Virus record (IMG/VR): IMGVR_UViG_3300017963_000719
Coordinates: 1-25,016 of that record
DNA length: 25,016 nt
Direction: 5' to 3' (one strand)
From: a virus
Below the pieces are notes generated by a model. The model had not been told where the DNA came from. It was given only the letters and a program-made list of their open reading frames with translations, and made no database searches. Position numbers and translations under genes: made by a program. Numbering within the stretch: the first letter of the stretch is position 1; each line of letters opens with the position of its first letter. Shown piece after piece: positions 11,122 through 22,939 of this stretch.

Positions 11122-11382
11122 ATCCTACCCTACTCCCCCTACCCCCTCCCCCCTACTCCCTACTCCCTACCCCCTACTCCCTATTCTGTGTGGGGGGCGA
11201 GCCGGCTTCTGGGGGGGGAAAAGCCCGGCCCGCCTCCTCCCAGCACGTCCCCATCATACCACACAGAACAACCGTTCGTCAAGCAGACCGCAAAAACAGA
11301 CCGCCCCTATCCCTCCCGCTACAAACAACCTGTCAGGTCTCCCTCCCCCTCTCCCTACTCCCCTCCTCCCAGTAGCACGATT
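11122..11382. other. Gene-free stretch with CTACTCCC-type tandem repeats
   Basis: About 260 bases without a convincing gene. The part up to about 11190 is a degenerate tandem repeat of CTACTCCC/CTACCCC. The rest is a mixed GC region with no recognisable signal. A late-gene promoter would be expected somewhere between here and 10955, but I cannot identify one. Confidence 0.6.
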
Positions 11383-11670
11383 CTAGGACCCCCATCGTGT
11401 ATTTCCCCCATCCGAGGTCTTCCCCCATCGTGTATTTCCCCCATCCGAGGTCCTCCCCCACCGCTCCCACCCCCAATCCCCCCCCAGCTCCCGCACCTCC
11501 CCCCGCCGCCCCAACACCAAACGCTCCTCCCCCCCCGGATACACCGCCACCACCCGCCTCGGCGCCGCCATCACCCGCCCCCCCGCCACCCCCACCACCT
11601 CGTACACCCGCCGCACCCCGCACCCCCTCCTCGCCACCAAATCCCCCCTCCCAAACCGCCCCACACCCAT
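11383..11670 (-). CDS. Small hypothetical protein with repeat-derived C-terminus
   Basis: 95 residues starting at the ATG at 11670, which has GGAGG 5 bases upstream. The body, GRFGRGDLVARRGCGVRR then VYEVVGVAGGRVMAAPRR then VVAVYPGGEERLVL, is basic and beta-rich and looks like a small SH3-like barrel, but I do not recognise the family. The last ~25 residues (RTSDGGNTRWGK and so on) are translated from two tandem copies of family C repeats, so the native protein probably ended near residue 70. Confidence 0.55.
   Translation of the reverse strand: MGVGRFGRGDLVARRGCGVRRVYEVVGVAGGRVMAAPRRVVAVYPGGEERLVLGRRGEVRELGGDWGWERWGRTSDGGNTRWGKTSDGGNTRWGS
11392..11452. repeat. Dispersed repeat family C, two tandem copies
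   Basis: Two head-to-tail copies (11392-11419 and 11424-11452), both with the CCATCCGAGGT ending, read through in frame at the end of the small gene. Confidence 0.85.
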
Positions 11671-11687
11671 CCACACCTCCCACCCCC

Positions 11688-11715
11688 CTCGTGTGTTTCC
11701 CCTATTCAAAATTCC
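11688..11715. repeat. Dispersed repeat family C, degenerate copy
   Basis: Diverged copy (CGTGTGTTTCCCCTATTC). It covers the stop codon of the gene ending at 11702. Confidence 0.5.
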
Positions 11716-13058: not shown

Positions 13059-13317
13059 CCTACCCGCCTCCCTCCGGCCCCACCGGCCCCCTCCGGCCAG
13101 CCCCCGGCCGTCCCCCTATTTCAATCCTGAGCCCAAAAACCCGTTCCGGACCATTTATACCCGCACAACCGCAACCCCACTACCCTATAGACTACCCTAC
13201 CCCCTACCCTACCCCCTACCCTAGACTACCCTACCCCCTACCCTAGACTACCCTACCCCCTACCCGCCCCCCACCCTCCCATCTCCATCCACAGATCCGC
13301 CGCAAAAACCGTCACCT
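13059..13317. repeat. Gene-free stretch with TACCCTA-type tandem repeats
   Basis: About 260 bases with no gene. From about 13176 to 13265 the plus strand repeats CTACCCTACCCCCTACCCTA with a GACTA linker, units of roughly 22 bp. On the minus strand this reads as runs of GGGTAGGGGG, which would lie in the 5' leader of the gene starting at 13058 and could fold into G-quadruplexes. Similar shorter repeats occur at about 11120-11190. Confidence 0.75.
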
Positions 13318-13340
13318 CCGCTAATGTGTGTTAGGGGACC
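13318..13340 (+). other. dif-like recombination site S2
   Basis: Left arm CCGCTAA, 6-bp centre TGTGTG, right arm TTAGGGGACC. It overlaps the stop codon of the gene ending at 13331 and is the left boundary of the first cassette. Confidence 0.5.
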
Positions 13341-13570
13341 TGTGGACCTTTCGGGCTTTCTGGTACATCTGGCCCTAGTATCCCGATCCTTAACCGTTCA
13401 GGCATATCGTCATAACGATCAATAGCCGCAAGGGTCACGATTGCGCCATTGTCTAAGAGTATATGGCAGTTACCGTCCTTCTCATATAGATTGATGGAGA
13501 GAATCGACGCTCCTGCATACAAATGATTTACTGATTCCTCGGCGTGTTCATCATCCAGCCATCCAAGCAT
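13331..13570 (-). CDS. Hypothetical protein of cassette 1
   Basis: 79 residues with ordinary, less GC-biased codon use: acidic N-terminus (LGWLDDEHAEESVNHLY), then two beta-like segments (ASILSINLYEKDGNCHILLDNGA). GGAGG precedes the ATG with a spacing of 6. It is the second gene of the low-GC pair and starts 30 bases after its partner, so the two are probably co-transcribed. Small acidic paired genes in such cassettes are often toxin-antitoxin or defence partners, but nothing in the sequence proves this. Confidence 0.65.
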   Translation of the reverse strand: MLGWLDDEHAEESVNHLYAGASILSINLYEKDGNCHILLDNGAIVTLAAIDRYDDMPERLRIGILGPDVPESPKGPQVP

Positions 13571-13600
13571 TTCTACCCTCCAGACTATCCTTCCGAGTAG

Positions 13601-13888
13601 TCAACTTATCGGAACCGACTGATCCACGTTCAGTTCTGTCCAACTCATTGAACTGTCGCTATAGAATGCCAAAAATCCGGGCTTAGGAAATGAACAATCT
13701 GGTGCCTCCCAGTCGTACCAGTGCACCTGCGTGCCAAAAACGAACCGATCACCAAGATTCTCCTCAAACCACTGAAGCCAGGCATCTTTGACACCTTCCG
13801 AGCAACATAACCGAATCTGTGTTACGAATGGAGGCAGATCTGCTATTCTGGACTGCACGTCCAAAAGATCACTCACTATGTCATTCAT
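13601..13888 (-). CDS. Hypothetical protein of cassette 1
   Basis: 95 residues, acidic and rich in aromatic residues: MNDIVSDLLDVQSRIADLP, then AWLQWFEENLGDRFVFG, HWYDWEAPDCSFPKPGFLAFY. GGAGG with 6 bases of spacing precedes the ATG at 13888. The codon use is clearly different from the G-rich phage genes on both sides. I do not recognise the family. It is first in the two-gene cassette, so both proteins may act together. Confidence 0.65.
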   Translation of the reverse strand: MNDIVSDLLDVQSRIADLPPFVTQIRLCCSEGVKDAWLQWFEENLGDRFVFGTQVHWYDWEAPDCSFPKPGFLAFYSDSSMSWTELNVDQSVPIS

Positions 13889-13930
13889 TTCGTCCTCCGC
13901 GTATCCACATTATGAGAGCCTGGCTGCCCA

Positions 13931-13953
13931 GGTCCCCTAAGAGTCATTATCGG
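13931..13953 (-). other. dif-like recombination site S3
   Basis: On the minus strand: left arm CCGATAA, centre TGACTC, right arm TTAGGGGACC. It is inverted relative to S2. The stop codon of the upstream gene (13937-13939) is inside the right arm. Confidence 0.5.
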
Positions 13954-14401
13954 CCGACCTCCCCCCATCGTGCATTTCCCCCATCCGTGGTTCCCACCCC
14001 AACTCCACCCCCTCCCCGCTCCGCTGCCAATCCCGCACCTCACCCCCCGGCCGCCCCATCCCCCCCTCCACCGCCGCCATCAAATGCGCCACCGCGAACA
14101 CCAGCACATCCCCCGGCCGCCACCCCCACCGCTCCGCCAAACCCCGCACCGCATCCGGCCACGCCGCGCTCGGAAAACTCACACTCATCTGCCGCCCCGC
14201 CCGCTCCCGGCTGTGCGGTGACCGCCTCTTCTCCCCCTCGCCCCGCTCCCGGCTGTGCGGCGACCACCTCTTCTCCCCCTCTCCCGGAAGCCGGGCGAGG
14301 GGGTCGGGGGGTGAGGGCCCCCCCTCCTCCCCACCAATCACCGCCGCCACCGCCGCATCCAACCCCCCCGGCAGCCCCTCCACATCCCGCCACTCACCCA
14401 T
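13937..14401 (-). CDS. Ribbon-helix-helix-like protein interrupted by repeats
   Basis: 154 residues from ATG 14401 (GGAGGGAGGGG upstream). Residues about 72-112 read as a ribbon-helix-helix DNA-binding unit: strand MSVSFPS, helix DAVRGLAERWG, turn RPGD, helix VLVFAVAHLMAAVE. Residues about 28-70 are translated repeat DNA (family A hairpin plus a duplicated ~45-bp segment giving EKRWSPHSRERG twice). The C-terminus (EPRMGEMHDGG) is a family C repeat. The native gene may be just the central domain, starting at ATG 14188. It lies directly after parA, so a partition regulator is possible. Confidence 0.5.
   Translation of the reverse strand: MGEWRDVEGLPGGLDAAVAAVIGGEEGGPSPPDPLARLPGEGEKRWSPHSRERGEGEKRRSPHSRERAGRQMSVSFPSAAWPDAVRGLAERWGWRPGDVLVFAVAHLMAAVEGGMGRPGGEVRDWQRSGEGVELGWEPRMGEMHDGGRSADNDS
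13965..13992. repeat. Dispersed repeat family C, next to cassette 1
   Basis: Short copy, read in frame as PRMGEMHDGG at the end of the ribbon-helix-helix-like gene. Confidence 0.8.
14185..14320. repeat. Dispersed repeat family A with duplicated side segment
   Basis: The family A hairpin and tail (14275-14320; GTCGGGGGGTGAGGGCC) are preceded by two ~45-bp direct repeats containing GCTCCCGGCTGTGCGG and CTCTTCTCCCCCTC. Confidence 0.75.
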
Positions 14402-14425
14402 CACTCACCCCTCCCTCCCCCACAT

Positions 14426-20219: not shown

Positions 20220-21044
20220 TTATCCCCCGCCAGCATCCCCCGCTGGCCTGTGTGCATTCTCAACCTCGATCAGCGTCCGCAGCCCCTCCTTCTCGTACAC
20301 CTCCACCCCCGCCGCCGCGCACATCCCCCCCACCCGCTCCGCGAAATCCGTCCAATTCACGGGCCGCAGCGCGTACCTCAACCCCGTCGGCAGCCGCCCC
20401 GCGTAATTCAACGGCCCCACCTTCACCTCCCTGATCCCCACCGAGATCGCCTGCTCCAACAGCCGCAAACTCTGCTCCGGAAAAATCACCGGCTCCAGGC
20501 TCACCCACGTCCGCGCCCCCGTCAGCCAGTCCGCCCGCCGCAGTCCCTCCAACCGTTCCCACGGCAGCGCCGCGTTCGGCTCCCACAGCCGGCTCTCCAC
20601 CTCATTCTCCAGCGTCAGCGTCGCCGCGTACTCATCCCCCTCCCCCAGCAAGTCCAGGTCCCGCGTGCTCTCCCGTCCCCCCTTTGTCAAAATCTGCACC
20701 CGGTGCCCGTGCCCCTTCAGCACCTCGATCGCGTGCCGCGTCAGCAGCCGCTCCACCCCCACCGCCCCCGCGTGCACCAGCGGCCGGGGGTACGGATCGC
20801 ACGAAAAACACAGGTGCACCAGCAAACTCTCCCCCCGCGCCTCAAACCACACCGCATCCCGCTCCAACCTGGTCAGAATGTCCTTGCGCGCCCTCGCCTC
20901 CGTGTGAAACGCGTACTTGGCCATCCGCAACACCCCCGGTCCATAGCAGTAGGCGCACCCGTGCGGGCACCCCCGGTACAAATTCACCGCCCAATCCGCG
21001 TACTCCGCCGCCCGTCCCCTCGGCCGATAAATCACCCTTGCCAT
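20220..21044 (-). CDS. Radical SAM protein, spore photoproduct lyase-like (SPL family)
   Basis: 274 residues. NLYRGCPHGCAYCYGP carries the CxxxCxxC iron-sulfur motif (Cys26, Cys30, Cys33), with the surrounding sequence of the SPL/Rv2578c-like branch. Later segments such as LLVHLCFSCDPYPRP, VQILTKGG and WVSLEPVI fit the SAM-binding barrel. The family includes DNA repair and uncharacterised enzymes that use SAM radicals; the substrate here cannot be told. It sits between the ParB-like and primase genes, so a DNA repair or DNA or nucleotide modification role for the phage is an inference. The ATG abuts the stop of the small gene upstream, with AGGGAGGG in front. Confidence 0.85.
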   Translation of the reverse strand: MARVIYRPRGRAAEYADWAVNLYRGCPHGCAYCYGPGVLRMAKYAFHTEARARKDILTRLERDAVWFEARGESLLVHLCFSCDPYPRPLVHAGAVGVERLLTRHAIEVLKGHGHRVQILTKGGRESTRDLDLLGEGDEYAATLTLENEVESRLWEPNAALPWERLEGLRRADWLTGARTWVSLEPVIFPEQSLRLLEQAISVGIREVKVGPLNYAGRLPTGLRYALRPVNWTDFAERVGGMCAAAGVEVYEKEGLRTLIEVENAHRPAGDAGGG

Positions 21045-21215
21045 CTAACCCTCCCTCTCCCCGCTAATGTATTTGGCGGACCGCCTCCGCATTCGCTCCG
21101 CCGCCACAATCCCCTGCCACTCTCGATATACCTCCCTCAGCTCGATCATCGCCCCCCTCAGCACGCGCCGGTACATCCGTACCAGTAATCGCCACTCCTG
21201 CACAATCGCCCGCAT
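21045..21215 (-). CDS. Small basic helical protein
   Basis: 56 residues, starting at ATG 21215 after GGGGAGAGGG and ending directly before the radical SAM start codon. The sequence MRAIVQEWRLLVRMYRRVLRG and IELREVYREWQGIVAAERMR forms one or two long amphipathic basic helices. Its C-terminal codons contain dif-like site S6. It is bounded by two directly repeated sites (S4 and S6), so it could itself be a small cassette. Unknown function. Confidence 0.6.
   Translation of the reverse strand: MRAIVQEWRLLVRMYRRVLRGAMIELREVYREWQGIVAAERMRRRSAKYISGEREG
21061..21082 (+). other. dif-like site S6
   Basis: Left arm CCGCTAA, centre TGTATT, right arm TGGCGGACC. It is in direct orientation to S4, 168 bp away, and both share the flank CTCTCCCC on the left. 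Confidence 0.4.
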
Positions 21216-21228
21216 CTCAACCCTCTCC

Positions 21229-21251
21229 CCGCCAATGTGTGCTCGCGGACC
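21229..21251 (+). other. dif-like site S4
   Basis: Left arm CCGCCAA, centre TGTGTG (identical to S2), right arm CTCGCGGACC. It is the left boundary of the second cassette, 4 bp beyond the stop of its gene. Confidence 0.45.
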
Positions 21252-21254
21252 TAG

Positions 21255-21503
21255 CTAGCCCAGCACGATCTGCCGTGCCTGTTTCAACGTTGATCCTCTC
21301 TCTAGTAATTCCACAATCCGCTTGCACTTGGCACAATTACACGCAGCCGGCGGACCGCCGCCAACGGCCTGAATCGCCGTCAGACTGTCCCGGATGCTGT
21401 CGCCGTCCTCGGCCAAACAGAGAATTTCAACACTCGGTTTCTTATCGAGTACATAGGCCATCGACTCGCTAAGCCCTATGTCCACGTGTGTGATTATGTC
21501 CAT
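21255..21503 (-). CDS. Hypothetical CNCAKC protein of cassette 2
   Basis: 82 residues. The first half is acidic alpha/beta (ITHVDIGLSESMAYVLDKKP), followed by a Gly/Pro hinge, CNCAKCKRIVELLERG (Cys55, Cys57, Cys60; possible metal site) and a basic helix. Codon use is less GC-rich than the phage genes. A small regulator or an anti-defence protein would be plausible, but the family is unknown. Confidence 0.6.
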   Translation of the reverse strand: MDIITHVDIGLSESMAYVLDKKPSVEILCLAEDGDSIRDSLTAIQAVGGGPPAACNCAKCKRIVELLERGSTLKQARQIVLG

Positions 21504-21558
21504 CTAGCCTATCTCCTGATACTGGTTCTCATTCGCAGAACCGGCAAAGTGTCTCATA

Positions 21559-21582
21559 GCTCCCCTACGAGCCATTATGCGG
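21559..21582 (-). other. dif-like site S5
   Basis: On the minus strand: left arm TGTCCGCATAA, centre TGGCTC, right arm GTAGGGGAGC. The left arm has the CGCATAA of classical dif sites. The TAA is also the primase stop codon. Confidence 0.45.
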
Positions 21583-22905: not shown

Positions 22906-22939
22906 CCTATGTCCGACAACCTACATTATCGGACATAGG
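22906..22939 (-). other. Palindromic dif-like site S1 (candidate attP or resolution site)
   Basis: On the minus strand: left arm CCTATGTCCGATAA, centre TGTAGG, right arm TTGTCGGACATAGG. The arms are inverted repeats of 14 bp with one mismatch. Arm-6-arm spacing and the core ATAATGTA match classical dif sites (E. coli core CATAATGTATATTATG). Confidence 0.55.

Follow-up and report, generated by a model that had tools for sequence, protein, structure and literature searches.

It has long been asked how single accessory genes can pass so precisely from one phage to an unrelated one, and the usual answer is rare illegitimate events. The low-GC block at positions 13318-13953 of the virus record IMGVR_UViG_3300017963_000719 raises the question whether a more specific mechanism may operate. 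An earlier note on this DNA had described the block as a two-gene cassette of foreign composition between two inverted dif-like sites, S2 and S3, and had likened its layout to the Xer-dependent dif modules of Acinetobacter plasmids. We asked whether this picture holds, and whether sites of this kind recur at the ends of genes in other phages. The whole 25,016-base record is called the window below.

The gene content of the window is that of a phage, as the earlier note had it: a Pfam scan detected a Mu-like portal, protease and head genes, a terminase, ParA, ParB and a primase, and nearly all genes lie on the minus strand. The foreign composition of the block was also borne out, the GC content of 13331-13940 being 0.485 versus 0.655 for the whole window, which places it at the 0.4th percentile among windows of equal length. 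S2 and S3 are indeed an inverted pair of 23-bp repeats matching at 19 of 23 positions, and their inward-facing 10-bp right arms are identical (TTAGGGGACC, present exactly twice in the window). As claimed, each contains a stop codon, the TAG of the upstream ORF (13937-14404) in S3 and the TAA of the last cassette gene in S2. The arms found here (CCGNTAA / TTRGSGGACC, TACKMGGAGG and TACTCGGAA) are unlike those of Acinetobacter pdif sites, again in agreement with the note.

The proposed dif-module layout stood only in part. Arms around a 6-bp core, a dyad at the core, low-GC genes bounded by sites and an inverted outer pair are all present; however, the block also holds a second pair of sites in direct orientation. 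The two-site picture had missed these inner sites, termed delta and beta, as well as a second low-GC block at 21061-21582 and a palindrome, epsilon (Table 1). On the coding strand, the order is alpha (S3), delta, gene 1, beta, gene 2 and gamma (S2). Because the direct pair lies within the block, the block is a nested or composite array and not one simple dif module. The cassette proteins had no match in Pfam and PHROGs, and no Rfam family match was found.

Table 1. Sites and cassette genes of the two low-GC blocks, and the palindrome, in the window.
Feature	Position	Strand	Sequence and remarks
Site alpha (S3)	13931-13953	-	CCGATAATGACTCTTAGGGGACC = CCGATAA-TGACTC-TTAGGGGACC; 5' end of the block; stop codon of the upstream gene inside
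Site delta	13894-13918	-	CTCTCATAA-TGTGGA-TACGCGGAGG; directly 5' of gene 1; inner arm gives the Shine-Dalgarno GGAGG
Cassette gene 1	13601-13888	-	95 aa; no known family; terminal PIS* encoded by site beta
Site beta	13591-13615	-	GTTCCGATAA-GTTGAC-TACTCGGAA; 3' end of gene 1
Cassette gene 2	13331-13570	-	79 aa; 63% identity to a protein of the unrelated phage G413 (22633-22938)
Site gamma (S2)	13318-13340	+	CCGCTAATGTGTGTTAGGGGACC = CCGCTAA-TGTGTG-TTAGGGGACC; 3' end of the block; inverted relative to alpha
Alpha-type site, second block	21559-21582	-	CCGCATAA-TGGCTC-GTAGGGGAGC; stop codon of the primase gene inside
Cassette gene, second block	21255-21503	-	82 aa; no known family; local GC 0.545
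Gamma-type site, second block	21229-21251	+	CCGCCAA-TGTGTG-CTCGCGGACC
Degenerate gamma-type site	21061-21082	+	CCGCTAATGTATTTGGCGGACC; near the 3' end of a 56-aa ORF (21045-21215)
Site epsilon	22906-22939	.	34-bp palindrome CCTATGTCCGACAA-CCTACA-TTATCGGACATAGG; arm type as in the other sites

In a gap-free alignment, all sites share one layout, a left arm close to TTCCGATAA and a right arm close to TTATCGGAA, which is nearly the reverse complement of the left, with a 6-bp core between them. The core is specific to each type of end: TGACTC in alpha, TGTGGA in delta, GTTGAC in beta and TGTGTG in gamma. None of these cores is symmetric, and each is 94-100% conserved within its class. The arms are symmetric about them: over 24 sites, complementarity reaches 61% about the middle of the core, versus 13-36% on neighbouring axes. 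The conserved stretch in each arm is only ~8-10 bp long. The arm that faces into the cassette tends to be better conserved than the one outside it, as in beta (0.99 versus 0.84), delta (0.89 versus 0.82) and alpha (0.95 versus 0.86); gamma, with three copies, shows the reverse trend. An asymmetric core that stays constant between symmetric arms points to strand exchange across a fixed overlap and away from an operator. The sites are also tied to translation signals: most copies of delta have a Shine-Dalgarno sequence in the inner arm, and beta is located at the stop codon or encodes it (in genes with the ending ...PIS*).

A position-weight matrix for the arms, trained on the sites of other phages with the cores ignored, placed S2 and S3 among the six places in the window scoring at least 13.9 (top places 13.9 to 25.8 bits), when sequences generated from a dinucleotide model would give 0.2 places of at least 13 per window. 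Across the phages, matches to arms-only matrices concentrate on cassette ends; in the window they fall on cassette ends and the palindrome, with few elsewhere. The test is not fully independent, since patterns derived from the window had led to the other phages; site partners that turned up unsearched are the stronger argument.

Such partners were found in several phages. Scanning 2.9 million viral contigs for gamma gave one match, in phage L004 (CCGTTAA-TGTGTG-TTGGCGGACC), whose nucleotide similarity to the window is confined to the site. L004 nevertheless carries an exact alpha, absent from the query, 544 bp from gamma across an adenine-methylase-like gene, and a beta that adjoins gamma; L006/L019 is a close relative, and the alpha 19-mer TAATGACTCTTAGGGGACC is identical in L004/L006, where it is a cassette boundary. 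The beta scan revealed new copies in L025, L029, L031 and L020/L030. Three of these phages (G003/L020, G004/L025 and G006/L031) have a delta, equally unsearched, at the start of the gene or genes preceding beta, and G005/L029 has a delta variant (ATTGAGGATACGCGG). When delta was used as the query, L088 (G413) was found, and there the next gene ends in the beta left arm and core (GTTCCGATAAGTTGAC). In total, beta has nine more copies in other phages, with none expected from shuffles, and delta recurs in G003 (twice), G004 (three times), G006 and G413/L088. Neither beta nor delta occurred in shuffled sequences of the same composition at the thresholds used, and when seven contigs were compared all against all by blastn, beta ranked with the strongest of the short matches that link otherwise dissimilar phages.

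All together, five or more phage lineages that are otherwise dissimilar carry the sites, in one to five copies per genome, always at the ends of small accessory genes. Thus, the search for S2/S3-type sites in other phages that the earlier note had proposed showed recurrence at cassette boundaries and not at random scattered places. The phages compared are uncultivated contigs, several of them fragments. Single matches without partners (L005, L027, L028, L032, L033 and most of the delta-scan matches) were discarded. A broad gamma/alpha pattern matched 11 times in 84,980 bacterial and archaeal genomes, each time as an isolated site without partner, which we judged to be chance. Beta, with up to 3 mismatches allowed, was absent from 400 genomes of one phylum (taken to be Chloroflexota), and plasmid and cultured-phage records gave nothing beyond weak partial matches to it. 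The literature searched, with most subscription papers outside reach, contained no account of such sites in phages.

The genes between the sites behave as a shared and variable set. All 12 cassettes compared have a lower GC content than their carriers (range 0.485 to 0.623), and homologues of cassette genes are shared by otherwise dissimilar phages in which the flanks are unshared. The ASCH-type gene of G005 has a 68% identical relative in G006, with a DNA match that runs up to beta, and the Zn-ribbon gene of G413 has a 57% identical relative, also in G006. Homologues are likewise found without recognisable sites, namely window gene 2 in G413 and the Zn-ribbon gene in G006. Different contents in one place are seen in the slot between a VWA and a primase gene: G001 and G002 have an alpha-methylase-beta-gamma cassette there, and their relative G003, with 68-69% protein identity in the two slot-flanking genes, has a tRNA-Thr and a delta-PAPS-reductase-like-beta cassette. 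The tRNA-Thr(TGT) gene (L020 6579-6652) lies within the slot, directly 5' of delta. Where G006 has ~60 bp, its relative G004 has an insertion of ~620 bp that holds two ORFs and has its left edge at a delta; no clear beta was found at the right edge. Tandem units also occur, as two delta-gene-beta units in G004 and as three sites after successive genes or gene pairs in G006. The contigs examined showed neither a recombination event nor a circular cassette nor an exact empty site, and no close relative without exactly this cassette was found. Searches of viral contigs with ParB and the gene 1 protein returned no relatives of the window phage, and a viral scan for relatives of the G004/G006 locus no closer ones.

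The second low-GC block of the window has the same end types as the first, alpha and gamma. It adjoins a radical-SAM gene (20220-21044) with 45-47% identical relatives in G004 and G006. The palindrome epsilon lies in an intergenic control region, and its heart reads ATGTCCGACAA-CCTACA-TTATCGGACAT. Counterparts of 34 bp, of the form CTATGTCCGAYAA-N6-TTATCGGACATAG, were found once per phage in G004 (42432-42465), G413 (22280) and, in a weaker version, G001 (37772), the phages that carry them being otherwise dissimilar. Epsilon is possibly a master recombination or resolution site, or else an operator.

If the sites are recombined, a tyrosine recombinase would be the candidate enzyme. Tyrosine recombinases are encoded in five of the eight phage records (G001, G002, G003, G004 and G006), and none was found in the window fragment, G005 and G413; the eight records gave no match to serine recombinase or resolvase families. 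The recombinase of G001, the one that was typed, scored best against the XerC, XerA and XerD models, yet below their equivalog cut-offs, and is Xer-like on these profile scores. No dif-like site was found beside the phage recombinase genes. An ORF beside epsilon in G413 was considered as a recombinase relic and dropped, as it had no Pfam match. On the bacterial side, epsilon-like sites occur in 3 of 400 genomes of the sampled phylum (taken to be Chloroflexota). Two genomes of this phylum, at L096 7540-7567 (G047) and L097 8102-8129 (G115), have related palindromes of the form ATGTCTGATAA-N6-TTATCAGACAT with surrounding repeats common to both, and one of the two lies 760 bp from a tyrosine recombinase gene, a proximity that is only suggestive in its bearing on the phage sites. 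No host dif site was found, and the arms, the right arms in particular, are unlike the textbook XerD arm of E. coli.

Could the sites instead be expression or regulatory signals, carried along when late-acquired genes spread by ordinary homologous or illegitimate recombination? The signals would be a promoter (-10) element and ribosome binding site at delta, processing or silencing elements at beta, and operators akin to epsilon. Indeed, delta has TAAT/TATAAT-like bases and GGAGG just 5' of start codons, beta is found at stop codons, and epsilon, built of the same half-site in a control region, could bind a repressor. A precedent is provided by the SAS/ESAS of cluster K mycobacteriophages, which are short motifs repeated at gene starts, contain inverted repeats and overlap translation signals (PMC3203893). 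However, these occur in related phages and at gene starts only, without a paired 3' site or a class-specific 6-bp core, and SAS are confined to one phage cluster, whereas the sites described here are paired at starts and stops and link dissimilar phages with one to five copies each. Moreover, operators are not expected to keep asymmetric constant cores within symmetric arms, a conserved -35 element was not seen upstream of delta on inspection, and the beta hairpin of G004 and G005 is not kept in other copies. A regulatory or boundary-motif origin of the sites is possible, but we consider it unlikely that signals of this kind explain them.

Both window blocks, and the methylase gene of L004, are enclosed by imperfect terminal inverted repeats of 23 bp, which would fit a non-autonomous transposon or MITE, alpha and gamma being its ends and a transposase mobilising it in trans. 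This is very improbable, as the passenger genes are wholly different, the arm type is also found in direct-orientation delta/beta pairs and in the palindrome, and inspection of the few alpha/gamma insertions examined showed no consistent target-site duplication; nor was there a serine recombinase in the eight phages or a transposase among the Pfam-scanned window genes. An integron-like system with beta as the attC analogue is likewise very improbable, even though small gene units with a 3' site stand in tandem and in one orientation as integron cassettes do (G006, G004), and the G004 beta copies fold as GTTGACTACT-CGGC-AGTAGTCAAC. This hairpin is not conserved among beta copies, the attC consensus pair RYYYAAC...GTTRRRY is absent on inspection, a distinct 5' site exists too, and in place of an integron integrase there is the G001 recombinase, with 107.8 bits against the integron-integrase model (cut-off 265). 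By the features tested, the block is not an integron array, a MITE or a SAS system.

The closest likeness in layout is to the pdif modules. A pdif site of Acinetobacter is 28 bp long. It has 11-bp arms with conserved inner parts around a variable 6-bp centre (PMC6449649), and the modules of Acinetobacter plasmids, which hold one or a few adaptive genes, are bounded by such XerC/XerD sites in inverse orientation, many per replicon, shared by unrelated replicons and with two described classes of centre (PMC6449649, PMC9455709, PMC7399989). Similarly, one or a few genes lie between inversely oriented alpha and gamma sites in the window and in L004, the 6-bp centre separates palindromic inner arm parts, and homologous cassette genes are found in different genomic contexts. 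In contrast, the carriers here are phages, the arm sequences differ, the delta/beta pair is in direct orientation, and the cores are constant for each end type and different between the two ends. The block thus resembles an Acinetobacter dif module in layout without being classed as one, and any role of XerCD is putative.

The best explanation, which we hold to be reasonably probable, is that the block consists of mobile phage gene cassettes in an array, delimited by dif-like (Xer-type tyrosine recombinase) sites and swappable by cassette exchange. Each cassette would bring its gene, often together with a ribosome binding site (within the 5' site) and a stop codon (within or close to the 3' site), and would drop into a phage operon in the transcribed direction. 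With the ribosome binding site in delta and the stop codon at beta, an exchanged cassette should be translated at once. Because the two ends of a cassette differ in core (delta from beta, alpha from gamma), recombination between its own ends should be blocked, and with it ready self-excision. Two crossovers by a tyrosine recombinase, phage-encoded or the host XerCD, would then swap it with another cassette of the same end pair; exchange rather than simple insertion may be the usual reaction. Within the window, an alpha-gene2-gamma cassette seems to have taken up, or to stand next to, a delta-gene1-beta cassette.

The overall reaction would be a natural form of recombinase-mediated cassette exchange. 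That term denotes a laboratory design, in which a cassette between heterospecific lox or FRT sites is swapped without excision; the present arrangement shares the cassette between two incompatible sites, but it is natural sequence, and both its exchange and its recombinase are putative. The wider proposal is more doubtful and we offer it tentatively: phages may possess a natural cassette-exchange system, in which a shared pool of accessory genes between incompatible dif-like site pairs is swapped in co-infection or at prophages by an Xer-like recombinase, independently of integrons and plasmid pdif modules. This may be an undescribed route of gene swapping among phages, and fixed-core site pairs around the swapped genes would supply a specific mechanism for phage mosaicism. 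If so, the sites would provide a sequence signature by which accessory genes of phages could be found, among them those for methylases, for ASCH-type and PAPS-reductase-like proteins and for many unknowns, and possibly a new orthogonal set of recombination sites.

Other repeated elements were noted in the window. A family of ~30-bp repeats (CCCCCATCGTGTATTTCCCCCATCCGTGGT, reading GGGGGAAATACACGATG on the coding strand) occurs in and around gene junctions, at 2181, 5091, 6225, 7788, 9503, 10998, 11389, 11422, 13962, 14426 and 15332, and may be a phage-specific start-associated sequence. Telomere-like tandem repeats (CCCTACCC / CCCCCTA) are located in intergenic DNA at 13180-13277 and 11128-11183, where the coding strand is G-rich. 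Finally, the arms matrix gave one other strong match, at 11365-11390 (GGTCCTAGAA-TCGTGC-TACTGGGAGG), which overlaps the stop codon of the ORF 11383-11709 and is a possible further, degenerate site.
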